From assembly GCF_000004075.3 (NCBI RefSeq), contig NC_026656.2:17122607-17186606 (forward strand): 64,000 nucleotides of DNA. Reading direction: 5' to 3'. Position 1 is the first letter of the stretch, and each line of letters begins with the position of its first letter. Shown here in pieces: positions 6,770 to 62,654 of the stretch. The stretch comes from Cucumis sativus. Taxonomy: Eukaryota; Streptophyta; Magnoliopsida; Cucurbitales; Cucurbitaceae. The notes beneath the pieces were generated by a model. It ran no database searches. It saw only the letters and a program-made list of their open reading frames with translations, and was not told the DNA's origin. The translations under genes were made by a program, and so were the position numbers.

Positions 6770-7400
6770 ATGATCATCCCAGTGCGTTGCTTCACTTGCG
6801 GGAAGGTAAGCTATGGACAACCATATTCAACATTGAGTTAAAGTTTCTTCTCAGAATTCCATTTTCCTGTTTTCTCTATCCTTCTATGTCCCACTGTCTT
6901 TGGGTTCTTGCCTACCCACCACCCCCAAAGTTTTCAATTACTCTCAACTCAACTCACCTCTTAGAACCCTTCGGTTTATATTTTTTTTAGGTGATTGGAA
7001 ACAAGTGGGATCATTACCTTGATCTTCTACAGGCCGATTATTCAGAAGGGCAAGTGAGTGCAACACGTCACTTCATTTACATTTTGATTTCCGTCTTGGT
7101 TTCTTACAACATCCAAAAGCATACCTGTTTTACCTTGCCTTTTAGAAGAGATCCTAATGCATTTACTTTTCCCGTATTAGGGATGCACTTGATGCACTGG
7201 GTCTGGTTCGCTACTGCTGTAGACGAATGCTCATGACTCATGTTGACCTTATGAAAAGCTTCTTAATTACAATAGTAATCCCTTTTCGCTTTCCTTCTCT
7301 TCCTTCATGCACGAGCTGTTTGCCTACTTCAGTTTTTCGCTGCCCTTTCACACATTTATCGCTTTCTGTTTCAGCTCTGGATAAGTCTGATACCAGTTAG
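6770..7400 (+). CDS. RPB10: RNA polymerase subunit RPB10 (shared by Pol I, II, III), with an apparent frameshift
   Basis: Four exons, 6770-6805, 6991-7049, 7181-7274 and 7375-7400. They encode the highly conserved start [12 protein letters not shown], the core with SEGDALDAL, and the [13 protein letters not shown] block. The zinc ligands C7, C10, C44 and C45 are all present. RPB10 is a subunit of about 71 residues that helps assemble the large-subunit core. After HVDL the family continues IEKLLNYNT. Here that peptide is encoded one base out of frame: an ATTGAA expected at about 7250-7253 reads ATGAA. Exon 4 then restores the usual ending TLDKSDTS only in the original frame. As read, the last 16 or so residues are replaced by a foreign tail of about 45 residues ending at 7488. 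Intron 2 appears to use a GC donor (GCAAGT at 7050). The introns are intact, so this is not a retrocopy. It may be a sequencing error, a young pseudogene or a variant allele. Confidence 0.85.
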
Positions 7401-9621
7401 GCGGGGGAAAAGTTTTCTGCTTGTTCATGTGCTGTGCTGTGCAGGAGTCAGTATTGGCGTTTACTTAAAGAGAAGATTCAGTGCATGACTCGAGTTGAGC
7501 TGTGTCTTGGTGTCCCGCTCTGTTTAATTGCTGATTTTATCAAGGGTTTACTAGCTTGTAGGAATTACATATCAGAACTGTGTACTATCATAATGTTGAA
7601 AGATGGTTAGAAAGAAAGGATGTAGTTAGTATGCTGGAAGGATTTCCCTTCTCTTAACTAACTGCCTTTGTGAAATGGTGTTTATACCTGGACTATCGCT
7701 AACAAATTAATACAACTATCATCAGATGTTTACACTGCGTCATTTGTTCAGTTCTAATTGCTTATGGTTTTCGGTTTCTCATTGTTGATTAATGGATGTG
7801 AAAGTCATTTGACAAAACCATAAGAATGCTTTGTAATCTTCCTAGATGCTTCAAGCACAAAAGTGCCTTAATTTGACCTGCATATTGTCTCCCCTATTCT
7901 TTTGACACCGAAATTATTATTTTGAACCTTTTCTTTGATCTGCAATATATTTCACTGGCTGTTTAGAAATATGAAACGAGTTTGTAAAGACCGACTTAGT
8001 CTTACAGCCATTTTTTTAGGTTTTGTTGTTCAATTTGATGTTTGACCTGGAAATTATTTCTAGACTACACTTTCAAGGATGTCTTCAGGAAAGACTTCTT
8101 TTTTTTTTTCTTTTAAAAAAATAGAAATGAATGGTGGGGATTTGAACTACAACTTGTTGGTCCTTAGGAAATACATACATTAGTTGAGTGAAGTTTTTGT
8201 TGGGAAAACTAATATTTTTATGTTTGACGTTCTATATATTGCATGTTTTGGGTCAGTATCATGTTTTGCACATTTGGTACAAGTCAAACTTAGAATAAAT
8301 GGCAACAGCAAGGGTATAAGTGAAAATTTCTAAAACATGGTAGAACTATTTGAAAATTTCCAAACTTAACATTATGGACTAAAGCATATATTTAGCGAAA
8401 AAAATTATCTCACCCAGGATCTGGGCAAGTTCATATTGCCCTTCTGCTCAACATTCAATCAAAATGTTCATAATCCCAAATCCAGTTGACCCACTTCAAA
8501 ATAACCAAAATGGTGAGATTTGGTGGTGTCCAGACTTCAGAGTTCATTAAGACGTGGATTTAGAGGAAGGGAGAGTGTATAGTCTTGAGATTCAAATTTG
8601 ACGAGGATGTCCTGGGAACAACAAGAGAGAAGGTACTCCTTTGAAATCGTACGCCTAGCACCTGCTGCTGAGTACTTTAATTTGTCTATTGACTATGAGT
8701 GTGAGGAAAGGTTGGGCTTTGAAAGAAACGAGAAAATGCAAGTTACAGTCAAGAATGTGGTGTGGGTCGGATCATATAAAAATCACATCACCATTGGCAT
8801 TCATTCAGCAATATAATCGAAGATTTCATCTCTAGTCCTTCGGGTCATGAGGTTTTCCAGTTCATTTCTCTGTTATTTCACGTTAACTACTGTCCTACAA
8901 AGAAAGTATGTTATACTTTCAGTACTCAATATGTTGATGGTTACTTATTGACCCTTCAAGTTATCCACCTATAGCATATAGCCTATAGCCTATACCTTGC
9001 TTTTCCTTTCCATAGTATTAAAAAAGGGAGAAAAAGATCAGCTCCATGCCATTCCTTTTCATATGTATGTTAAATTAGGAGACAACGTGGCATATGAGTG
9101 TACACTAAAAACTTTATTTATCGTAAGGCTCACAATTGAATCACCGCATGCATATGATTATGTTTCTGTATGTTACCTAGTGGAGCAGCTACCTTCTCTC
9201 TCTCAATATTATTGTGGGCAATTTATTTTGACATAAAATATAATAAATAATGGGATCTACAACATCACTTCAATTTCAATTTCACCTATCAATAATCTAT
9301 AGTACTGTTGTAATTTGAATGCCACTTGGAATACAGTAGATGAATAATGAGTTATTGGCAGTGACATGAATTTAAAGAGGTTGTTCATTGTTGGGGCCAA
9401 AGCAAGGGGTGGAGAGATTTGTCAAAATCAGTCACACCGTTAGGAAAAATATACATATAAATATACCATATATGTGCAATAACCATCCATTCCATTCTGC
9501 TACTTTCTTATCTATTTAGAGATGGGTTTTGGATTGCTTGTGCTGTTTTGGCCCTTCACTTGGATATCTGTGGATAATATTTCTTCTTTCCTCTTCTTTC
9601 ATTTGTTCCCCCTTTTTCTGC
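7401..9621. other. Intergenic region
   Basis: Begins with the 3' flank of RPB10. About 2.2 kb of AT-rich DNA follows. A 72-codon open frame at 8598-8816 has no recognisable family motif. A SINE-like remnant lies near 8.1-8.2 kb. The last few hundred bases are the promoter of the TIGR01589 gene. Confidence 0.5.
8105..8195 (-). repeat. tRNA-like (SINE-type) remnant
   Basis: On the minus strand the segment reads CACTCAACTAATG, then a short spacer, then GTAGTTCAAATCCCCACC, then an A/T-rich end. The second block resembles the Pol III B box (GGTTCGAANCC) and the first a decayed A box. Similar modules occur near 16.15 and 27.73 kb. Full element limits and target duplications are not visible, so the family assignment is tentative. 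Confidence 0.35.
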
Positions 9622-9629
9622 TATAAAAA
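9622..9629 (+). promoter_or_regulatory. TATA box of the TIGR01589 gene
   Basis: TATAAAAA preceded by a pyrimidine-rich stretch and about 195 bases before the start codon. It leaves a leader of roughly 165 bases, in which a 5' UTR intron is possible. Confidence 0.65.
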
Positions 9630-9824
9630 AGCTCACAAATATCTTCTCCTGATCTTTGGCGCTTGTGAGGGCTTTTGATTTGTTCTCTTCTCTGTTTTTT
9701 CAGCAATATTTCGTCCTTGGGTTTTCGCTGAATGTACTTAACATTATTCCTGGGTTTTTGACCAAACACTATAGCTAATTTCTAAAAATAGATATACATA
9801 AAATAGATAAGTCATAGTATCAGT

Positions 9825-10606
9825 ATGTACCGCCCCAACAGCCACCACTTTCTTCCTTGTTTTCATTGCCAACCCCATGCCTATATCCGGATGGTACTGC
9901 TTTTCTCTTTCTTTCACCAATTGTAACGGTTAAAATCTTGGATTTTTCTTTTTTATCATTTCAATTAATTTTGCAGGTCCAGCATCTGATAGAGAGATGC
10001 TTGCTGCTTCATATGAGTCGAGATGAGTGCGTGAAGGCATTGGCTGACCATGCAAATATCCGTCCTCTCATTACACTTACAGGTCCGTATATACAAATAC
10101 TCCTTTTAAACTTTGTGAATCAAATTTTAATTTGTTATTCAATTATCTAAATTAAGCTATTCTGGGGCTTTTTTTTAATTAACCTGCCAGTGTGGAAGGA
10201 GCTCCAGAAAGAGAACTCTGACTTCTTCCGAGCATATTTCCATACCATTTCTCCCAATCCATTCCTCGGTATGATCCCTTATCTTATGGTCACTTCAAAA
10301 TAAAATAATGTCATTTGATTGTGACGGCCTTTGCCTATATGATCATTTCATTTAGTTCCTATTTAGCTTGATTAATTATTCACCTTACACACAAACCTAC
10401 AGCACTATTTTAAGTACTTCAACTCTTCAGTTTGGTACAAACAAACAAAAAAAAAAAAAAAAATGCAGTTGAATAGGTTTTAATTTTAAGAATCGACATC
10501 TATATATTTATTTGTTTAATTAGTTAAATATTTGGGTCCATTTACAGCCAAATTCACGGGGAGTGAGCGGTGCATCATGAGAAGACAATATCTCTACTGG
10601 AGGTGA
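9825..10606 (+). CDS. Small plant-specific TIGR01589-domain protein
   Basis: Four exons, 9825-9893, 9977-10082, 10191-10268 and 10548-10606, join in phase to 103 residues. The core, from VQHLIERCLLL through CVKALADHANI to VWKELQKEN and FFRAY, matches the uncharacterised plant-only domain TIGR01589 (A_thal_3526). That domain is a short helical module of about 55 residues with no known biochemical function. The N terminus, MYRPNSHHFLPCFHCQPHAY, is His/Cys-rich and encoded by its own exon. The C terminus is basic and ends QYLYWR. No signal peptide or membrane segment is visible, so a soluble location is likely. The start is the only ATG that keeps exon 1 in phase with the domain, and a TATA box lies upstream. 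The family is clear; the function is unknown. Confidence 0.88.
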
Positions 10607-13560
10607 TCCATTAAGAATTTGTAATGCTAATATATATGACGACGGCGACGACGATTAATTAATTCGAACCCAGTTGTTTGTAGATCAAGTAAGCTCTTTT
10701 ATTATTATTCTTAATTTGTTTTGGAATAAAAAAGAAAAAAGAGAGTGTGAATGCTAAATTTAAAGCCTGTTTACACAACGGATTACATTTTTTTATTTAC
10801 CAAATTGATAAATGGGATACCCTTGAAGTGCAGTCTCCAATACCACCCTCTGATCCCTATGCTATATATATATATATATATAAAGAAATGTTAACAGAAG
10901 ATCATATTTTCTCATAGCTTTTCAGTTTGGTTGCTGATCTTAAAAGGAGCTAAAATATATTGTTTAATGTTTATCCCGCGGTTGGACTTGGGGAACATTG
11001 TTCAATTGGTAAATCAATAGAGCGAGAGGGAGAGGGAGAGGGAGTGAAGCATTTTACGTGGACTGCAAACTTGGGCCCTTTTATTGGCCGCCTGAGAAAA
11101 GAAACTCCAGCCCATATATGTGTTTTGAAATGCTGGAGACTACTTAGAAGTAGAAGTAGAAGTACCCCAATGTCAACTACAAATACACACCAACTCAAAT
11201 ATTATAAACTTTTCAATATTTTAATGTCATTTATTTTAGTCTAACTTCAATATGGTACTCAGTGTTTTAAATCACTTCATTTATTACTTTTTATGATACA
11301 TGCTTCTTTGTTACTCAATTTACTTTAACCCCACTCATGTTTTGTTTTATGTATCTCATTCCATCTTCAACTCTAATACAAACCATTATCCCCAACTTTT
11401 TAAATTATGAGTTAAATTTCTAATGTAATCCTCATTTTATTTATTTTTACCATTTTCTATATTTCATACTACTCAACAATTTTTTTCCTTCTGTATTATT
11501 TTTATATTCAAGGTTATTTTATATGAATTTAGTCTATTACGTTTTAATGATTACATCTAGGACAATATTTTATTTATGGTTCTAAAATTTTGATATTCTG
11601 AAACTTAGATCGTATAGGATGAGTTCTTTTTTTTTTTCTTTTTTTTCTTCAGAAAAGGAAGTTTATCTGTAGTGATGAAGGACAAAACAAAGCAGGCAAT
11701 TGGACAAAATAAATATATAGTATTGGAAATACCCTATTTTGATCATACTAACATATCAAACCCATTTAATAACCCATGTTATTCTACTATCATATATTTA
11801 TAGCTATTCATTTTATGATATTTTATTCCCATCGAAAAATAAAGAATTCTAAACCTTTTAGCTTTGGAATGGCGTTTTGCAATAATAATAATGGTAAGCA
11901 TTGTTAATTAGATATAGGACATTTATTCCGATCCTCTTTAACATAATTGTGAAGTTTTTTAAAATTTTTAAATTTTAAAATGGTTGATAATTAAGGTTGA
12001 TCAGTTTGGTTATGCATCTCATATAAGACAACAAAACTCAAGGAAAAAAGAATAGTAGTAGAGATAATTATGAGTAGGTAGTAGTTAGAGAAGTTATAAA
12101 ATCTAAAATATGGTCACAGTAAGCATAATATAAATCACAATATATTATAGGTTGAATCGAAAAGGACGAAATAGAAAAAATGGTGATGAAAGAGTTTTAA
12201 TGAAAGTTGTTTTGTATGTCGTGATGCCCTTTTAATTATATACACCAAGTTGTCAAGCTTTTTAATTAATGCACTCATTAAATAGAGAGTGCCCATGAAT
12301 TTATTATTACTTTTTTAAATGGGTAATATAGATCTTCGATACCCTATTAAACAGCATCTTTTTTCAATTTTTCAAACTGGCTTTTCTTATCTCGTCTTAA
12401 ATATTATTTATGATCAACCAATCTTTTCAAATTTCCTCTCTCTCTAAAAAAGTAATAACAACATTTTTTCTTTTAAAAAATAACAAATTATGTCCTCTAA
12501 TTAACTTATAATGTATAATACCCTAGTTGAATAACTATTATCATTTATTAAGGAATTACAAACTTTACTTTTCTCTCCCACCTTTATTTTCTTCTTCTCT
12601 AATTAATATTGTCTCTAATAATATACACATCTTGTCTTTCAATTCTTCCCTCTCTAAATCATTTCCTTTTGTCTCTACTAAATCTATCTCTAGGGTCAAA
12701 TATATATATATATATAATTTTATTTTCAAGCTTTAATTTAATTTCTTTCCATTGCTTCTTAGAAAACATCGACCAAAACACACTATGCTTCTAGCACGTC
12801 TCTTAATTTACTTTTTACTTCACTGCATCCTCACATTGATATTTAGTTAATACAACAATGGGAATTAATTAGAATCATTAAGTTTATAATTAGAAGACCA
12901 CATCAACTGTTTTTTTGAGCTATAAAATCATTTTGGTATGGGACTGCATCTCTTATAATCCTTTTAGGGGGAAAAATTAGCAAAAAAAAAAAATTATTTT
13001 GGAAAATATTAACAAAATAAAATAAGTATTAATTGTTGTTATTGGATTAATTCTTCGAGTGCCGCCGTTAAGAAGGCTTTTGGAAACCCTTTTCTTCTTC
13101 TTCTCTTTATATCGTATTTCTTTCCTTCTTTACCTTTCGATTTTTTTTTTTAAAAAATTTTCAACCAGTTTTATTTATATTTTAAAAATACTAAATTAAG
13201 AATTAATGGTTTATAAATAAAATTGTTGATTTGTTTTAATGTAACATTTTCCTTTTTTTTCTTTTCAATTCAATTGTTGTCTTATTCTTTTAATTCTTGT
13301 TTCATTTAGGTGATACTTGTAAGCCAAGAAGAATGGAGGAGGATTAGTCAATTATGAGTCAAAAAATAAAGTCGTGACACCAACTATATTTCTATTGGTA
13401 TGATGTGTTGTGATGGTGTATATATTAAAGTTAACAGTATTGTAGAAATATTAAAGGACTCGTTTTCTTAAAAAAAAAAAAAGAACACATTTGCAAATTT
13501 CACCACATATGTGTGTGTGTGTGTGTATATATGATGGGAAATTAAAAGTAGATTTAGTTT

Positions 13561-13593
<33 letters not shown>

Positions 13594-14414
13594 CTCTAAG
13601 CTTTGTTTCATTGAAAGCTAAAATTCATACAAAAAAATATAAATAAAAAATAGAGAAGAAGAGGGAGGGAAGGATGGAGGGGTAGGGCATTACATGAGTT
13701 TTATTATAATATATTAAATGAAAAGAAAAAAGTGATAGAGAAACGAGGGAGGGGAGGGGATCGGGGGGGGGGGTGTTGTTGTCTTTATGTCAGGATGGAA
13801 TTAATATCTTTCATTGTCGTTGGGCGCAGATCCAAAGCACAGGCAGTAAGGGAGTTTTTCTTTTTTAACTTCTAAGAACCACACTTTGACCTCTGAAATC
13901 ATAAATATAAAATAACAAGTAAGGATAAAGAAATAAAGGGAAAATTAAAATAAAAAAGGCATTATTGAGCTTTTAAAATTATCTAAAATCTCAATCTCAA
14001 TCTCAGTGGCATCCGGGCATTCAATTACTGTAAACAATGAGAATAGAACTAATTATTCATAAATTCTGTATTTAAGTCTCATTCCATTTCAAGAAAATCG
14101 ACTTGGATGTGGTCGTTGGCTTATTACCCCCCCCTACTTTCTATTTTATTTTTTTATTTACCCTTTAATTAAATTCTAAATCATCATAATACACACACAC
14201 ACACACATACACACCACCACCACCACACCAAACATAGTAGGGGACCGGAAATATATACTTGCCAATCCCATATATATTTACTCTCTCAAATTTATTATTC
14301 AACATTAATGTTTTGTCTACTCATATATAATATATGATTAATCAATGAAGGTAGCTAATTTTAAATATAATTACCTGATTTAAGTTAATTAATATGACGC
14401 TCTCCCTCCTTTGG
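10607..14414. other. Gene-poor AT-rich intergenic region
   Basis: About 3.8 kb without a credible gene. It contains TA, GT, CA and CAC repeats, a G11 run (13763-13773), poly-T and poly-A tracts, and a GAGAGG/GAGGGA purine stretch near 11.03 kb. Both flanking genes end here, since the region lies downstream of the TIGR01589 gene and downstream of INO. Confidence 0.6.
13565..13590. repeat. (AT)13 microsatellite
   Basis: 26 bases of perfect alternating AT, about 35 bases after a short GT/TA run at 13510-13531. Confidence 0.9.
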
Positions 14415-15792
14415 CTACATTACGTTTTTCTTTCTCAGCATCATATGATCAGCTCCTTCAGCATTGACTGGCGGAAGATGAGCCCACTGCACCTCCCCAA
14501 CACCAATAACAATCATACAATTTCTTTCCTTCATATTATACATCAAAACTAACTTACGCTTAAATGTAATAATAATATATAACCAAAACTCTCTCTCTCT
14601 CTCTCTCTCTCTCATCAATGTTATCATGAATCCAACGACGTAACACACATAAAGCTTACATTTTTTGCAGCTGTCTTGAATGCTTCTTTATGAGCCATCG
14701 CTGGATTCTCTGCCTTCAGCCTCCGAATCTCTTCCCTGCATATATACATATATATATATATATATTTAAAACTTTTAAATTTTAATACAAATTATAATGA
14801 TTTGCATGTGAAACCCCAATTCACACCCTTTCTTAAACTCTCTCTCTCTCTCTCTCTTACGTAATTTGAATTTGAAGTTTAATTAATTATAAATATATAT
14901 CTTACTTGATGAATTGGTTATAAGCTGATGGGGCTCGCTGTTTCTTCTCCGGGGCTAATTTTCACAGACAATATATTAGAAAATTTTAAAAAAGAAATTT
15001 CACATATACAATAATATGAAGAAAAAAAAGAAATTTATAGACATCATGAAAGGGCCAGATTACGCTTGTTAACAACTGGAGTGGGTGGAATAATGATGAC
15101 GTCATCATCTTCATGATTTTGAATAATGTTATGGTACGAGGTTAGGAGGTCGGACGACGATGATGAATTGCTGAGGCTGTCCAAGCAGTAGTGTTTCTGG
15201 ACGTTAAACTCTTGACCAAAACCCTCCTTTGGCTGACCAAAAAAGAAAAAAAGAAAAAAAAAAAGAACATTTTGTAATAATAATTTCTAGTTAGGATCAG
15301 TTCATGTACTGCTGACAGTGTGATTTCAAAACTAGAAATGTTAAGAGAGAAAAAAGAGAAAAATAGGTATAGATACCAAGTTATGAGAGAGGGAGGTGAG
15401 AAGATCAAAAGGGATAAAAGAGGGCTTAGCCATGTTGACAGAGAGAAGACCAGCACAGTTTCCGCATCTTACACTCACCACCATCGACAAGTTGCTGTAT
15501 GGAACATTTACCTGTGCGTATAGAATAATACTTAACACTACTTGAATATATCTGAGTTATAAATTAAAATCATCATCAAACAAAACCATATAATAATAAG
15601 ACATACACACACACACACACACATATATATATATTCTCACTAATTTAATTACTACTTAATAAGGCTTGCTGTTTTAATTATATGATATGATCTTAATTAC
15701 GTACGTACCAATAATATGGTGCTACAAAGACCACATTGCACATAGCGAATCTGTTCAGAGGAATCGGCAAGGAGCTGCTCCACTGTCGACAT
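14415..15792 (-). CDS. INO: YABBY transcription factor INNER NO OUTER
   Basis: Six exons: 15709-15792, 15377-15511, 15064-15232, 14906-14954, 14660-14735 and 14415-14486. They join in phase to 194 residues. The YABBY zinc finger has C20-X2-C23 and C44-X2-C47. The HMG-like YABBY domain, with KPPEKKQRAPSAYNQFIK then EEIRRLKAENPAMAHKEAF, spans about residues 129-175. Features shared with INO rather than FIL, YAB2, YAB5 or CRC are VQCGLCSTILLVNVPYSNLS, LSVNMAKPSFIP, AMAHKEAF and WAHLPP. INO acts in the nucleus of outer-integument cells of the ovule and is required for growth of that layer. A serine-rich and acidic linker (SSSSSD, HEDDD) lies between the domains. The start is the first ATG in exon 1. 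The N terminus is slightly shorter than in Arabidopsis, so an upstream start is possible. Confidence 0.93.
14589..14613. repeat. (CT)12 microsatellite in the last INO intron
   Basis: Perfect CT repeat inside the intron between INO exons 5 and 6 (14487-14659). A second CT repeat lies in the adjacent intron near 14840. Confidence 0.9.
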
Positions 15793-18144
15793 ATCAACAC
15801 CTCCTTTTAATTTATTTCTAACACAAAACAGATAAAAGAGAGTGATGAATAAGACCTAATTATATATATATATTTGTCTCTCAGGCTCACACCAATTTAT
15901 ATGCAAGTCCAATTTATATATACCTCTTTTTGCTTCCCTTTATTATCAAATATAATATATCATACTTCCCTTTCAATTAATGATTTCCCTTCTGTCGTTT
16001 TCTCACACTAAGATTCTTTTATATATGATGTGGTATACTAAAATTATGCACAAATGTGCTTTTTACAAATTTATCTACTTACTTGGTTTAAAGTGCAATG
16101 ATTAGATACATCATATCTCATTTTATATATTATGGAATGAGAATTTGAACCCGATACCTCTTGTCAGTTGAGCTAACCTCATGTTGGCTATATTAATTTT
16201 TTTAATGTTAACTGAAGACTGCACACTGATAATAATAAACTGCCATATTTATTTTTATTTATTTAGAACTTTTTGTTCCATTTGATCATTGACTATTAAA
16301 AGGTATATTTTAGATTTATATATTTTGGGCATTATTACAGCTTTCATCACGTCTCTAGGTATATTTGATATTATCACAATTTAAAACTACGTGGGCTTGT
16401 TGATATATCAAATGAAAAAAAAGGAATGCAACACTGATCGTTTTTGTAAATTATTTTAAAGAAATTAAAGGAGTAAAAGTAAAAGGAAAAGGAAAATTGA
16501 AAGTTTATGATGAATGTTAAGAGACGAAAAGGACTATATTAAAAGTCAAAGTAGCAAAATAAAACAACTTGAAAGTTGAATTAACTTTTGGTAGTGCATC
16601 CACAAGGGAAGTAAATGGTTACTATTTTTAACGCAACAAAAGAAAGAAAACCATGCACTTCTCGCCTCTTTTTTTCCCTATAATTTTTCATCTCATTTCC
16701 CAACATTTCATTTTAGTAGAATTCAGAACGTACATAAGATTATGTGAGGGTCTCTTAGGCTTAGTTAAAAGTGGCTGGTTAAATGTATATAGATTTACAT
16801 ATTGGGTGGAGCTGGTTGAGGGAAAATGAATTATAATTTAGGTTATCACACTCGGACAGGTTTCAAATGCCTTCTTAATTATCATTAGGAGACACATTCT
16901 GACTGTTGTATTCAGCAAACTGCATGATCTATCACTAAAATTAAAGAATTAACACTTATGATTGTGATCAATTCATAAAACATTTTCTACTCATTGGGTA
17001 AAAACAAGGTTAAAGTATAAATTCAATTATAAAGTATGTGTATTTGATCTAATTTCATCTTACAAAATTATAAGTTTAGTTTTCAATTCTTAAAGTTTCG
17101 TACAAAGTTGAAAATTTTGATTTATTAGGCATAAAGTTTAAACGATCGATTACTTAAAAAAAATTATTAAAAATGTCAAAAACCTATTAGACATGAAACA
17201 GGGGCATAATGTATTGAACACTTTTGAAGGTTGTGAATCAAATGAACACTAAGGAATATCTACTGCATCCGTCCATCTCAACAAAATTATATAAGGAAGC
17301 ACCAAATAATAACATTTCATGAAAATTTGTCACTAGCATTCATTCTCTAAAAGTTATTACATAATATGGGGTATGGGTCTTGAACATTAGGCAGTTGTTG
17401 ATGCATCATCCTATAAGAACATATGGGTTCTTCGATGGTGCAAACTCCCCTAATCTTCTTTTGGCCAGAGAAAATATCGAGTGCAAGTTTGAAACCAAAA
17501 GCTAATTGCTAGGAGAAATATCTAATTTGATAAACGGTAACAGGAATCAGCCTCACCAATTGCTCGAAAAAACATATCAGACATCAGAAACTCAAACCTA
17601 GTAAAAAAAAGAAAAAAACCTACCATTGTTGAAGTATCAACAATTGCCCAATGTCAGAGGACATTCCCAAACTTGATTGCCCAAGTCAGCAGTAGATAAC
17701 TGCAATAAATCTTATTCACAGTATTTTCGCTTATCACTTATCAGTGACATGGAAAATGAAGAACCTAATAATAGTTGCATTGAGGTACAGCTAAACTAAT
17801 AAGCGGTCCAAGACTAATTTCAAATCCATTATGGATAGGCCAAAAAAGCATAAATAGCAGGGTGCCAGTCCAAAGAATTGAAGATTTTTCAATGACGTAA
17901 TTAGCACACTGATTCGAGAGTATGAAACTGCATAAAATTTCCAGCAAACAGGCAGTATATGAAAGATGCTTAAAAAATATTTAACCAAAATTGAGCATTG
18001 ATTTGATTGTTTCCAAATGTAAAACAGTTCATGAAAATGGACCCATTTGACCATTTGTAATCCTAACAATTAATATTATCCCAAAATGATGATCATCATA
18101 AATAAAAAAAATCTCTATCAAAATGTAAATATAAAAAAAAAGAC
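15793..18144. other. INO upstream region and 3' flank of the ubiquitin-eS31 gene
   Basis: About 2.35 kb of AT-rich DNA. Its left part must hold the INO promoter and leader (minus strand), with several TA runs but no unambiguous TATA box. A SINE-like remnant lies near 16.15 kb. The right end is the 3' UTR of the ubiquitin fusion. No coding signal was found. Confidence 0.5.
16110..16187 (-). repeat. tRNA-like (SINE-type) remnant
   Basis: On the minus strand it reads GGTTAGCTCAACTGACAAG and then GGGTTCAAATTCTC. The first block resembles a Pol III A box (TAGCTCANYTGG) and the second a B box (GGTTCGANTCC). AT-rich sequence follows. It is too short for a tRNA gene, since there is no cloverleaf and the boxes are close together, so a decayed SINE or SINE-like tail is the likeliest reading. 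Confidence 0.45.
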
Positions 18145-20275
<2,131 letters not shown>

Positions 20276-26533: not shown

Positions 26534-29500
26534 ATGGCTCGCAAGAAGATCAGAGAATACGACTCTAAGAGATTGTTGAAGGAGCACTTCAAACGGATCT
26601 CTGGTAGACAACTCCCCATCCAATCCGCTCAAGTGAGTCCTGCTTCACTCTTCTTATAGATCTCCATATTCTTAACAATTTTCTTCTGCCTCATTACCAT
26701 TATATTCACCTTCTTCTCTCTTGACGTTTCTTCTTCCCTTACACTCAACACATTCACTGATAATTGTTTTTCTTCCTTTCTTTTTTCCTCTGGACATTAC
26801 CAAATCTGAAGCCACTTTTGTTCACCCGTTTGAATCCTTGGATATGTTAAAAGAAGTCTGATCTAACGTTGCTTTCCCTGTCTCTGCACCACCACTGACT
26901 TGAAATCTCTTTCTATGCCTTCGTTATTGATTTAATGACCATATTTAAAATCTGGCTCAGGTCACTGAATCAACTGATTTCAATGAGCTTGTTGAGAAGG
27001 AACCTTGGCTTTCTTCATCAAAATTGGTCGTGAAGCCCGACATGTTGTTTGGAAAGCGTGGCAAAAGTGGTTTAGTCGCCTTAAATCTTGATCTGGCTCA
27101 GGTTGCTGCATTTGTGAAAGAGCGCCTTGGGAAAGAGGTGTTGTTTTATTTTCTTTCGTCTTTTGGATCAATCTGCTTTTTATAATTGTTCGTTTTCTCA
27201 TCATCCCATTCCATTTCCTTCTCTCGCTTATTGATCCTTTTACTATGCTATTATTCTCTTTCATGACCAGGTAACAATGGGTGGATGTAAGGGACCTATC
27301 ACCACATTTATTGTGGAGCCCTTCATACCGCACAAGGAAGAATACTATCTCAATATTGTCTCAGAGAGACTTGGGTGCAGTATTAGCTTCTCGGAGTGTG
27401 GAGGAATTGAAATCGAAGAGAATTGGGATAAGGTATTTTTTCTCTTGATACTATTTGGTGTTTTTAATTAACAATCTGTTAGGTTCAGGAATTACTCTTT
27501 GTTTGAATTCTATCACCCCCAAATTTTACTAAGCTTCAATGGAATTCTCTTTTGAATCAGGTTAAAACCATATTTATCCCCACAGGAGTGTCCCTCACTT
27601 CAGAAACATGCGCCGAGCTGGTGGCAACCCTTCCTTTGGAGGTAAATTTTCATTGATGAAAATTGCTTTTCCTTTTTAGAGTTTTTTTCTCTGGTGATAC
27701 CTATCACATAGTTTACACTGACTCAACCAAGAGGTTAGAGGTTCAAAACCTCATCGCCACATATTCTTCAACTAAAAAAAATGTATATTATAGTATTCTT
27801 GACTACATAATTTGTGGAAGCCTAAAACTGCTTAAGACCTTACATACACTATATACTTATGAGGCTTTAATTTATCTGAAATGGTTATCTGTCACGGAAA
27901 GTCAAGAAACCCTTTGCAAGATCAGATAGTTAACATAAATTTGTTCTTCAATCCAGATCAAAGGAGAAATCGAGGAGTTTATCAAGGCAGTTTATACCCT
28001 ATTCCAAGGTATGCTATTTTTTTTGGATGTGAACTTAACTGCTAAATTATTGGTAGATTAAAAAACTGAAGTTGTTAGTTTAATATCAATATATTTCAAT
28101 ATCATTATTAGGCTTGTCTGTCTTGTCATCTTGCTAATCATCACTAGACTATAATCCTGAAGTCTAGTAGTCCTAAAAATATATGAAGTTAGGTTCGAGT
28201 AAATCTAATTACTTATTTTATTTCGTGAATGGATCAATTAAGTCAATTTTTTGTGAGACAGATCTGGACTTTACTTTCTTGGAAATGAATCCTTTTGCGC
28301 TTGTTGATGGGAAGCCCTATCCTTTGGATATGAGGGGTGAACTAGATGATACTGCTGCTTTCAAGAACTTCAAGAAGTATGTCTGACACCCTTGGTTATA
28401 AATTGCATTACATCCATTGCTCGCGCATCAAGTACAAGCGTAATAAATTATATTTTCTGATATGTTTTTGCCCTTGTAGGTGGGGAAGTATTGAATTTCC
28501 AATGCCATTTGGTAGGGTTATGAGTCCCACTGAGAGCTTTATCCATGGCCTAGATGAAAAGGTAATGAACCTATCTGTAGTTTTTTCTCCATATTTATGA
28601 TGTCTTCCTTTAACAATTCTTTTCATTAGTCGACTGGTTTGTGTATATTCTTTTATTCTGGAAATTCATGGAAAATGTTTGAATTCGAAAACCCTTTTTG
28701 GCGTAGAGCTAATGAATAATGATATTTGAGGGTTTTCTGTTTTCTTACTGCAAGTTGTCTGTATGTTGTCAGTGTTAAGTCTTCCGGACTTGCAATTATG
28801 AAAATACGATGGGTTGAATTTTTCTTTTTTAATGAACAAAGGGAATGCTTGGGAAGTTGGAATGGAATCAGGATCACTAGAAATTAGAAGGGTGCTGAAA
28901 TTCATGTCGAATAGAAGGCAGAACAAAAATAGGATCGTAAAGCGTAAACAAATGGAAAATAGGGTTTAATTGAAAACTATAGGAAGGAAATGAGTTTAGT
29001 ATTACAATTTAGGCTCAAAACAGTCTATCCAAACCTGAATTTTGGATTTCATTCCAATGAATTCCAATTCCATTGCGGGTGCCCGAACACCCACTAGTCC
29101 CTTATTCTTGTATGGTAGTTAATTTTTTAGGGAAAATAGATAGAAAAAAGCAGCCCCAAAAGGGTATTCAGATAAGAAAAGGACTCCAATCAAGGAGAAT
29201 TAAGACCTAGGGAATAATTAAAAAAAGACTTTGTCACCGAAGAAGCATAAAACCTATTGGGTGACCATATATCATAAGGCCCTCTCTCAACATGTGCAAA
29301 ATGCATAAAATACCTAAATGCGAGTCCGTTTTCTAAGTATGTTAGTTATTTTATTCAACACGTGCAAATTGTGTTTTTTTTTTCTGAGGTTTGCATGTCC
29401 TTGCAAATCCGCTAGTTCAATGCTTATGTGACCATCCTAAACTAATTTCATTCCATTCATTTCATCAGCGAGTTTGCTGAAATTTTACTTCATACTGGAT

Positions 29501-40335: not shown

Positions 40336-42726
40336 ATGGACCCCAGGAAACTTGGATTCCCCGAGCAGATTCTATCTCCGAGGAGAAGAGTTGTTCCTGG
40401 ATTTGGTCTTGGCATTTCCCTTTCTCTTATTGTTCTTAGCTTTCTTTTGCTCTACACTTCTTCTCACGGCAAATTTTTCTTCTCTCTTTATGATCAACCC
40501 CCTTCCGTTGATTCTCTCTTTTCTTCTTGGTCTTTCTCTTTCTCTTCTCCTTCCTTCTCTCCTTTCACTCCTAATTCCTCCAACTTGCCCACCTATGATG
40601 ATCCTTCCCTCCCTTCCCAATTCCCCCCATTTCCCAATCACACTCATCGTCACAACAATGCCACCCTTCAACTCAATCCCCATTCCCCCAATGCCTCTCT
40701 GTTTCCTCCAAATGCAACTCTTTTCGACATCCCAGAGTTGGACACCCAACACAATTTCCCCCCCTCTAACTCCACTTCTTTGAACACCAATACTACTCGA
40801 TATCCTAAGGACACCAATCATTCTTCCAATGCTCAGGGCAATATGCCATCACAACCCAATGGTGGTGCCACAAATTCAAGCCACACAATTGAAATTTCCA
40901 ACAACACTCAGCCCCTGCTAACATCTGATGACAGTTTTTACGAGGATTGTGATATCTTCGATGGTGAATGGGTGAGGGATGATTCAAAGCCATATTATCC
41001 TTTAGGTTCTTGCCCTTTCATTGATAGGGACTTCGATTGTGATCTTAATAAAAGGCCAGACGATGGATATGTGAAATGGAAATGGCAGCCATATGGGTGT
41101 AACATTCCAAGGTATTACATTAACCTGATCCCAAACCACCCCCCCCGATCCTTAATTTACATGCATCATTAGGTTTGCTCCATGTGATATTCCTATTTCA
41201 TAATGCATGCAACATATATGAGATGCATTTTGAGGTTACGAACCACTGTCCTAATACCTCTTTTGAACACTGCTTCTTTTACAGTCTGAATGCAACACAT
41301 TTTCTAGAGGTGTTGAGAGGAAGGAGTCTGGTGTTTGTTGGGGATTCATTGAATAGGAACATGTGGGAGTCTCTCGTCTGCATTCTTCGTCATAGTGTAA
41401 GCGACAAGAAAAAAGTGTATGAGATATCCGGAAGGACAGAGTTCAAGAAGAAGGGCTTCTACGCCTTCCGTTTCGAGGCAGGATTTCCTTGGATGTTTGT
41501 TTATTTATTCTCTCCATTGTCCAAAGTTTTAAACACATGTTTGTTATTTTTGGAACGTTTTCAACTCATCTTTCCGTTTTGTTGTATCTGCAGGACTACA
41601 ATTGTTCCGTGGATTTTGTTAGTTCTCCATTCCTAGTTAGGGAGTCTTCGTTCAAAAGAAAGAATGGAACCATCGAGACATTAAGATTGGATCTAATGGA
41701 CCCAACAACCGAAATGTATCGGGATTCCGATGTTTTGGTCTTTAATACAGGCCATTGGTGGACTCATGATAAAACATCGAGGGGGTATGTATTGTACTCA
41801 TCATTTTTTTTCAATCCAACCTCTTGGGGAGATTGTGCTCCATTACATTTCTCTTTAGCTTGAAATTCATCTGGACTTACCTCGCATAATATCTTGCCAT
41901 GATGCATCACCATTTGTAGCAGTTTTCGGTTGTTGAAGCTGTTTTTGTTTTCGCTTCTATTTCAGAGAAGACTATTACCAAGAAGGTAACCATGTGCACT
42001 CAAAACTCAAGGTGTTGGAAGCGTTTAAGAGGGCTCTCACCACTTGGGGTCGATGGATCGACAACAATGTTGATAAAAATCGAACTCTGGTTTTCTTCAG
42101 AGGGTATTCATATTCTCATTTCAGGTATACAAATTTCTCTTGTTTTCTTGCTTCCAAACTAAATATTGTTATAGATATATGATTTAACATGGAGAATATG
42201 CTACTAGTCCAAAATGAACGAACAATATTATTAATTTATTGGTTATTATTATTTTAATGAATTCATCACGTTCAGTGCAAAACATCACATTGAAAAGGGT
42301 CTGTCTATTCTCGTTCTAGTAAAAACTAAATGAATGAAGATGAACTTGAACTCCCAACTTTTTTTTTCCATTAATGCTTCCAGTGGTGGCGAGTGGAACT
42401 CTGGAGGGCAATGCAACATTGAAACGGAACCAATTTATAACAAAACACACTTGGGCAAATACCCTAAGAAAATGAGGGCTCTGGAATATGTGATTCAGGA
42501 GATGAAAACGCCAGTGTCATACTTAAACATAACCAGGCTCACTCACTATCGGAAGGACGCACACCCTTCAATTTATAGAATGGAGTACAAGACAGAAGCA
42601 GAAAAACGTGCAGGCCTGCGAGTTCAAGATTGTAGCCATTGGTGCTTGCCCGGGGTACCTGATACTTGGAACGAGCTGCTTTATGCATCTGTTTTAAGGA
42701 TGGCAAAGAGATATTGGAACAACTAA
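40336..42726 (+). CDS. TRICHOME BIREFRINGENCE-LIKE protein, TBL1/TBL2 type
   Basis: Five exons, 40336-41111, 41285-41477, 41594-41784, 41966-42124 and 42384-42726, join in phase to 553 residues. A membrane anchor (about residues 20-43) is followed by a long Ser/Pro/Asn-rich stem with many NXS/T sites, as expected for a Golgi type II protein. The PMR5N part starts at [11 protein letters not shown]. The esterase core has the GDS motif (VFVGDS, S280) and the C-terminal DXXH motif (DCSH, D522 and H525). TBL proteins O-acetylate cell-wall polysaccharides such as pectin, xylan or mannan using this Ser-His-Asp site. TBL2 similarity rests on stretches such as [11 protein letters not shown] and [13 protein letters not shown]. 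Intron 2 seems to have a GC donor (GAG before GCAGGA). A second in-frame reading from an ATG at 40331 is in a different frame and was not chosen. Confidence 0.92.
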
Positions 42727-60107: not shown

Positions 60108-62654
60108 TTATCTGGGATAAAACGAACTATGGCCGATTGTGGCAGTAGAAGATCCCTCCGTATTCGAATAACATCGTGAGTACTTGCATGAATCATCAAG
60201 TTCCATGGTCATCTCATCCATGAAAGGTGGTTTGGTGGGTGGAGGAAGATGCTCTTCCTCCATGGTCAGCATTCGTAGTACCTTTGACATTGTTGGTCGT
60301 AGAGATGGAATCTCCTGGATGCATAAGAGCCCTATGTGAACCACTCTCACTACCTCGTCCTGTACTTTCTTGTTATAGTGATTCTGAAGATTGAGACTTG
60401 GATCAAATAATCTCTCAATTGTGCCTGCTTGGAAATGTCTCCAAATCTATTTTACCATGTAGAAACACAAGGGAGAAGGGAGATGTCATACTACTGTTCG
60501 TAGAATTTTGCATTCATAGAAATATATGTAACGGTTTCACAGAACTTACAACAGTGACCAGACTTTCAATGTTTCCTGAGACTTGAATGCCGCTATATTG
60601 CCATCCTGTAACAATTTCTAACAAAAGCACTCCAAAACTATAGACATCAGCCTTCTCTGATAACTGACCATAAGCTAGATACTCCGGAGCCATATATCCT
60701 CTGTAGATACATACGGTAGAAAGAGGGAACATTAGTAGCTCTACAAATCTTCTATTAGCTTTCATCTAATTCAATGCATTTCAAACTGACTGAAATAGTA
60801 CTTGTTCATGAGAAAACATACAGGGTTCCTGCAACAGCCGTGCTAATATGGCTCTTGCTATCTTGGAAAGACCGTGCCAATCCAAAATCCGCTATTTTCG
60901 CTTGATGCTTTTGGTCCAGCAAGATATTACTGGCCTTTATATCTCTGTGTATGATTTTGAACTTTGAATTTTCATGTAGGTATATTAAACCTTCAACCGT
61001 TCCAGTGATGATGTTATATCTCTTATCCCAATCTAGAGCTCTACTGTTACTGGTATCTGTGTAATTTTTTGAACAAGTGAACGTACAATCTTTGAATTAC
61101 TATAATCAATGTATTTAATAGTGATAGCTGCAGTACGTACCAAAAATGAAGCGATCGAGACTCTTGTTTGGTAGGAATTCATAAACAAGAAGGCTTTCAG
61201 GTCCAGAACAACTGCATCCAAGCAACCTTACCAGATTTTTATGTTCAACACTGCTGATCATGTTTACTTCATTGTAGAAATCTGCTGCTCTATGTCTGTT
61301 ATCAAAGAAGAATCTCTTGACAGCAATCTCTCTTCCATCGGATAGGGTACCCTGTGAGGAATGAGAATGAAAAATGAACGGATTGTTTTCGGTTAAAATT
61401 GAAGATTGTAGGTCCTGCTCAGATAGAGAGGAAGAATAACTACCTTATAAACAGAGCCAAACCCCCCCTGTCCAATCTTGTTATCTAGGCTGAAATTGTT
61501 TGTTGCTTTTTCAAGGGTTGAGTACTTGAATTCCAAGTTACTATCTTGAAGAGTTTTTGCCAACTTCTTCACATCAGTTGAACCTCCTGAAGTGTAAATT
61601 ATATCATTTTAAGAGAAGAATGTCAATAAATCTCCCTCGAAGAGTTCCTCACCATGAAACTTGCAGCTTTATATTTTACCTTTCCTCTTCTTTTGAATAT
61701 ATCTGCGCTTCCAGATATAAGTGCCAATCGCCAGACCAATTATCAAAACAACAACAGAACTCAAGACTGAAACTATCAATTCAGTTCTCATGCCACCTCC
61801 TGACAAGGCATCGTTTCAAACATTGTGAGAGTGGAATAGTTGGTTAGCATACACTAAACTTGTGTCATAGGATCAGTGTTACCTCTGGAACTATTTTTAA
61901 TGTCCTGATTGAGGAAGTCTGTATTTGAATATCTCATGAAGCAGCCTGTGTTCAATGCTCGCGCTTCCGATCGTGGTAAACATCTTAACATTGAAGCAGA
62001 AGCAATTTGCAAACATGTGCTGCAAGAGCTGCGGTTCAAACTTCTCCAGCACTGACCCAGAGCATAAGCGGCAGATTCATTTGCCATCCCGGCCACAGCC
62101 ATTCGAGCTTTCGCAAAGCCTCTGTTGTCTGGTGCACCATCGACCACTTGCATCACTGCCTCCTTGGCTGCTTGCCTATAGTTGGGGTCATTTTGGGTAA
62201 AGTTCCCGCAAATTGCAGTGTCTTCAGGCCCTTTATATTCATCAAAGAAGCTATAGTTTTCGAACCTCAGGAAGCAGCCATCGATGAAAGCTCGACCGCC
62301 GTTGAAAGGGAAGCATTGGGGAAGCATTGTACGTGCTTGAGAATGACAGAGCACACATTCAAGGGATGAGAGATCTCCATGGCATTGAGCAAGCCCATAG
62401 CTGGCATCAGGTCCTGTCCCTGTACCGGCGGTTCCAAATCCTGAAGTTCCGATTTGTTGTCTAACTTTTTCCATGGAACCAAAAAAATTTGGGACGTATG
62501 CGGTGGTGTTGTGCTCCAGTTCTTTCCCGCAAATCACTCTCACAGTTTGATCTCTTGGCTTCCCTAGAGTCGAAGTTGCTTGCAGCAGAAGAAAAGTGAT
62601 GACCGAAAATAGGATATATTTGGAAGCATAAACAAGCTGTATCCCCATCCCCAT
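60108..62654 (-). CDS. Cysteine-rich receptor-like kinase, CRK2/CRK3 type
   Basis: Seven exons: 61883-62654, 61680-61799, 61444-61586, 61141-61351, 60822-61056, 60550-60700 and 60108-60446. They join in phase to 656 residues, the classic CRK exon pattern. A signal peptide ([19 protein letters not shown]) precedes two DUF26 domains with C-X8-C-X2-C at C91, C100, C103 and C202, C211, C214. A transmembrane helix lies at about 264-286. The kinase has [13 protein letters not shown]357, HRD (D454) and DFG (D472). CRKs are plasma-membrane kinases implicated in redox, immune and abiotic-stress signalling; DUF26 folds resemble carbohydrate-binding ginkbilobin. Basic residues ([11 protein letters not shown]) follow the helix as a stop-transfer. 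All catalytic residues are intact. It is tandem with a second copy at the right edge. Confidence 0.95.

Follow-up and report, generated by a model that had tools for sequence, protein, structure and literature searches.

A one-base deletion in the assembled sequence of one of three cucumber RPB10 genes suggests the recent loss of a redundant duplicate

RESULTS

A frameshifted RPB10 gene in the cucumber assembly

RPB10 is a subunit common to the nuclear RNA polymerases and is essential in yeast. The window analyzed here, a stretch of 64,000 nucleotides from Cucumis sativus (G000:C2:17122607-17186606), contains a four-exon RPB10 gene at positions 6770 to 7400 that lacks one base in the assembly. 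In line with this species, a plantacyanin fragment agrees with cucumber basic protein (2cbp) at 62 of 65 residues. It is one of three RPB10 genes in the genome, and the other two, a twin on the same contig (C2, near 21.664 Mb) and a copy on contig C5 (near 25.684 Mb), have intact frames. We consider it probable that a recent one-base loss broke the window copy, a redundant duplicate.

All four exons are located on the plus strand: exon 1 (6770 to 6805; 36 nt, 12 residues), exon 2 (6991 to 7049; 59 nt), exon 3 (7181 to 7274; 94 nt), and exon 4 up to the old stop (7375 to 7400; 26 nt). In both the C2 twin and the C5 copy, the exons measure 36, 59, 95, and 26 nt, which bears out the claim of an earlier sequence-only reading that a one-base deletion wrecks the C terminus of the protein. 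Alignment to the C2 twin placed the missing base at about positions 7250 to 7252 in exon 3. Over this exon, the two copies match at 93% (E value, 2.4e-31), with seven differing positions apart from the gap, and chance resemblance is no concern.

The predicted window product is identical to that of the twin over residues 1 to 55, i.e., up to the HVDL motif, as the same reading had stated, and then continues with 45 unrelated residues (about 45 had been claimed) to give 100 amino acids in total. The shifted frame extends into the former 3' untranslated region (7401 to 7488), where its stop ends at position 7488. The alignment to the twin also confirmed that the expected C-terminal end is still encoded one base out of frame, and the DNA for the old C-terminal TLDKSDTS is present in exon 4. 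The CxxC motif close to the N terminus (CFTC) and the CC pair that follows further on (RYCCRR), whose cysteines we take to be the zinc ligands of RPB10, are in frame, in agreement with the earlier view that the zinc site is intact. The conserved HVDLIEKLLNY end, which is identical in the 4 chains with displayed alignments among the 19 matched, is absent from the window product, the frame being lost after HVDL. Because this end is lost, the window copy is, on its sequence, classed as a broken gene of the RPB10 family and not as a working member, and the identity of the lost end in the displayed chains makes the shifted 100-residue product unlikely to work. The window copy scores 105.5 bits against the Pfam family RNA_pol_N (PF01194; cut-off, 26.9 bits) and the intact twin scores 110.4 bits; the high score of the broken copy is due to the profile stopping just past the break.

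Two intact RPB10 genes elsewhere in the genome

The genome (226.6 Mb in 88 contigs) was searched for a second RPB10, a check that the sequence-only reading had proposed, and two more genes were found. The search with the RNA_pol_N family and a search with the protein identified the same three loci, the latter with six exon matches. The C2 twin and the C5 copy each have an open 71-residue frame with the usual end, and the twin encodes exactly the expected 71 amino acids. The C5 protein has amino acid differences at 8 of 70 codons from the window copy and from the twin alike. Three introns are present in each of the three copies, and a retrocopy origin was rejected on this ground. A disabling change (in the assembly) at one locus and an intact copy elsewhere, two of the marks of a recent pseudogene of a redundant duplicate, were both found among the three loci.

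Only silent divergence between the window copy and the twin

Of the 70 codons, 13 differ between the window copy and the C2 twin, all of them synonymously (Ks, 0.36; Ka, 0). Two of these differences fall downstream of the deletion, where they are synonymous when read in the old frame. If there were no constraint, the chance that all 13 are silent would be about 1e-8 (kappa, 2). When the C5 copy was used as an outgroup, seven changes were placed on the window branch and three on the twin branch, and three were unplaceable; this placing was done by eye, and synonymous sites are saturated against the outgroup. The seven changes on the window branch are all silent, for which the probability without constraint is about 5e-5, and the unconstrained share of that branch is at most about 14% (95% bound, subject to the by-eye placing and the saturated outgroup). 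The absence of amino acid changes in 70 codons fits a very young break or none. Since there are only silent changes, with constraint on nearly the whole window branch, the break is, as judged from this record, either very young or absent from the plant altogether, in which case it would be a consensus error.

Outside the exons the two copies are far more diverged. The identities over aligned letters are 66% in intron 1, 56% in intron 2, and 74% in intron 3, and the upstream stretch is 48% identical. Based on this intron and upstream divergence, the duplication that gave rise to the window copy and the C2 twin is considered old.

The window copy appears to hold the old chromosomal position

The neighbors of the window copy are all on the minus strand and include an exon of a RING-finger gene (1752 to 2276), the exons of a YABBY gene (14657 to 14955; G000:C2:17137263-17137561), and a gene for a ubiquitin-ribosomal protein S27a fusion (18148 to 18615). 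In wax gourd, an interval of chromosome 4 that holds BhYAB4 (seed shape) is tabulated with the order RNA-binding protein 48, BOI-related E3 ligase, RPABC5, YABBY 4-like, and Ubiquitin (PMC9493316). From its name and location, we equated the RING-finger gene with the BOI-related E3 ligase in that table, and the S27a fusion gene was equated by name with the listed Ubiquitin; the YABBY gene likewise bears a name given there. The window order RING-RPB10-YABBY-ubiquitin is thus that of the wax gourd table, as compared by annotated names and not by sequence.

The YABBY and S27a genes also have counterparts beside the C5 copy of RPB10. The S27a search of the genome gave two genes, one in the window and one at C5:25679010-25679147, and a YABBY gene is located at C5:25682577-25682859. 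RPB10, YABBY, and S27a have the same order and relative orientation in the window (6770 to 18615) and at C5:25679010-25684929, and the two regions look like an old duplicated, i.e., paralogous, segment. The surroundings of the C5 RPB10 copy did not yield the RING gene, and the YABBY and S27a searches of the genome gave no match near the C2 twin. The order shared with wax gourd (by names) and with C5, together with the absence of YABBY and S27a near the twin, suggests that it is the broken window copy that holds the old chromosomal position. As the neighbors shared by the window and C5 are absent near the twin, the latter is probably a later transposed daughter that kept its introns.

We considered whether the two C2 copies arose by duplication of a large segment and rejected this. 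The surroundings of these copies (114 kb versus 130 kb) were compared as open reading frames of at least 30 amino acids and as DNA, and they share little beyond RPB10: one pair of open reading frames is 20 to 26% identical, and the DNA comparison gave one match of 248 bases and one of 34 bases. Separately, window positions 28846 to 29090 (245 bases) are 73% identical to C2:21697449-21697696, which lies 33 kb from the intact twin. Elsewhere in the window, exons with PMR5N and PC-Esterase domains were detected at 40336 to 41633, presumably as in a trichome-birefringence-like gene, and an exon on the minus strand at 61857 to 62654 has Stress-antifung domain matches.

Splicing of intron 2

Intron 2 (7050 to 7180) is a GC-AG intron with the donor GCAAGTGAGT, a feature absent from the account of the sequence-only reading. 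The donor is GC (GCAAGT) in the window copy versus GT in both other copies, and GC-type introns are reported to make up 1.488% of plant introns (PMC7072748). An alternative GT donor is located 4 nt past the GC donor. The energies calculated for pairing with the U1 end were -6.1 for the GC donor, -6.8 for the GT 4 nt further on, -9.4 for the donor of the twin, and -6.0 for that of C5. The GC donor may be a second mild defect, or it may be harmless.

Indel errors in conserved coding sequence of the same assembly

The paper describing the cucumber assembly reports polishing with Illumina and Sanger reads, the correction of 156,931 small indels with Pilon, a further 30,546 small indels that persist as homozygous differences, and an estimated small-indel error of 0.00014 per base (PMC6582320). 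At this rate, 0.03 indel errors are expected in 216 nt. As an error control, we used conserved coding matches to the UDP-glucosyltransferase and HSP70 families in the same assembly, 61,446 nt in total. In the UDP-glucosyltransferase family, 86 of 131 candidates were scored (40,965 nt; 5.7 indels expected at the published rate), all 86 were without an internal stop, and none was seen split, the nearest starts being 2,043 bases apart; three short matches could have been cut by a frameshift. The HSP70 family contributed 42 matches (20,481 nt; 2.9 indels expected at the published rate). Among 28 neighboring HSP70 pairs, 2 have overlapping matches in different frames, and an intron turned out to account for each. 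Stops are present in 12 of the 42 matches and probably reflect introns; the check covered the two overlapping joins. Altogether, no frameshift was recognized in the 86 glucosyltransferase and 42 HSP70 matches, against 8.6 expected at the published rate, and the indel error rate in coding DNA therefore seems to be lower than published, though it is not proven to be zero.

The chalcone synthase family was too small to serve as a control and was left out of the counts. One chalcone-synthase-like match (C1:1210270-1210710) contains two stops, and 45 bases beyond it lies another match, which covers a later part of the profile and reaches position 1210851; two others, at C6:18803785-18804048 and C6:18804089-18804223, are separated by 40 bases. 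These two loci are possibly broken copies or frameshifts.

DISCUSSION

A recent one-base loss in one of the three cucumber RPB10 genes is the explanation that we favor, and the points for it include the two copies with intact frames, the wholly synonymous divergence from the twin, the location of the deletion outside longer runs of one base, the GC donor in the broken copy, and the apparent rarity of coding frameshifts in the assembly. The RPB10 gene at the old position would have been copied once, introns included, to a site 4.5 Mb away on the same chromosome, and purifying selection would then have maintained an identical protein in both copies over a long period. The copy at the old position would finally have lost one base in the sequenced line, which would deprive its protein of the last helix and the tail. 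Such a loss would be bearable with the intact twin supplying the identical normal protein, and the twin, if expressed, presumably covers for the broken copy. Of the three options that the sequence-only reading had left side by side, a young broken copy accompanied by a second RPB10 is thus the best supported, an assembly error retains some likelihood, and a tolerated altered subunit has become unneeded.

The chief rival is that the long-read assembly retains a consensus error here and that the gene is intact and works in the plant. We regard this as rather unlikely, though it deserves to be taken seriously. The protein record has no amino acid change before or behind the break, as an intact gene would show, the published error estimate and the homozygous differences left after polishing leave room for such errors, and RPABC5 is annotated at the corresponding place in wax gourd (PMC9493316). 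Against these points, the counterpart of the lost base in the twin is one of a pair and is not part of a homopolymer of at least three bases, and an adjacent run of four A residues shows a substitution relative to the twin and no difference in length. The control, even with its gaps allowed for, contained no recognized frameshift where several were expected, and two kinds of reads are described as having been used in the polishing. The weights that we give to a real deletion and to a consensus error are judgements and were not computed.

It is very unlikely, in our view, that the frameshifted gene is expressed and that its 100-residue product, with a hydrophobic tail of 45 residues, serves as an altered subunit of a polymerase or in some other role. 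The tail has an open frame and is hydrophobic (mean hydropathy, 1.03), the zinc-site cysteines are retained, and the shifted frame ends in the last known exon, so degradation of the transcript is not required. However, the tail matches no Pfam family at an E value of 0.001, the stretch that it replaces is identical in the four displayed chains of the 19 matched, and splicing at the GT downstream of the GC donor would yield a product of only 36 amino acids. Moreover, the normal protein is encoded by the intact twin, and with intact RPB10 genes elsewhere in the genome, tolerance of an altered subunit is not required. There is almost no chance that translation or splicing recovers the normal end from the sequence of the window copy, and we found no support for either route. 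Ribosomal slippage was rejected because the joined mRNA, examined in the in-frame register, has no X-XXY-YYZ heptamer and because the frame that slippage would have to enter is closed by a stop at position 7244, directly ahead of the break. The sequence-only reading had allowed for a different exon structure that would keep the conserved end in frame, and none is possible: the zinc-site and LLNYN blocks lie in one exon, only a few codons apart, a spacing too close for any intron to separate them, and alternative splicing as a rescue was rejected accordingly. Retention of intron 2, in which the zinc-site frame is lost and an early stop follows, and use of the downstream GT donor, with its truncated product, were also rejected as rescues.

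If the deletion is real, it is a further example of a redundant gene copy that was lost recently, the small twist being that the copy at the old position of an otherwise essential gene is the broken one. With the old-position copy broken, orthology by position would lead annotators to a dead gene. A more far-reaching version, which we regard as highly improbable, is that the working copy of an essential polymerase gene is the transposed daughter, that the old-position copy is dead, and that lines or wild relatives that retain the old copy but not the daughter would be partly incompatible with this line in crosses. If true, hybrids would fail here because a gene for a core RNA polymerase subunit had been lost reciprocally, and this requires the C5 copy to be unable to stand in. 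If the deletion is instead a consensus error, single-base frame breaks in the cucumber reference need checking before losses are claimed.

By titles and abstracts, the literature on RPB10 or RPABC5 in cucumber yielded only a wax gourd paper. Compared with the RPB10/RPABC5 chains 8hil_J and 7eu0_J, the latter named as subunit 10 of RNA polymerases II, IV, and V, the window copy shares nearly all of residues 1 to 55, the zinc-site cysteines, and the family match, whereas its end consists of the 45 unrelated residues that result from the one-base deletion. Arabidopsis is described as having NRPB10 and an NRPB10-like gene and olive as having two NRP10 genes (PMC8721170); several RPB10 genes per genome are thus found there as in cucumber, where one of the three is frameshifted in the assembly. 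CMT1, reported as a dispensable gene with frameshifts in certain Arabidopsis ecotypes (PMC6238269), is similar in being a gene broken by a frameshift, which in CMT1 concerns some Arabidopsis lines and here one cucumber assembly. In maize, loss of one RPABC5 gene (ZmRPABC5b/dek701) is reported to be survivable, with a strong growth defect and stunted plants (PMC11944614). The window case resembles it in the apparent loss of one plant RPABC5 gene, the growth defect being that of maize.
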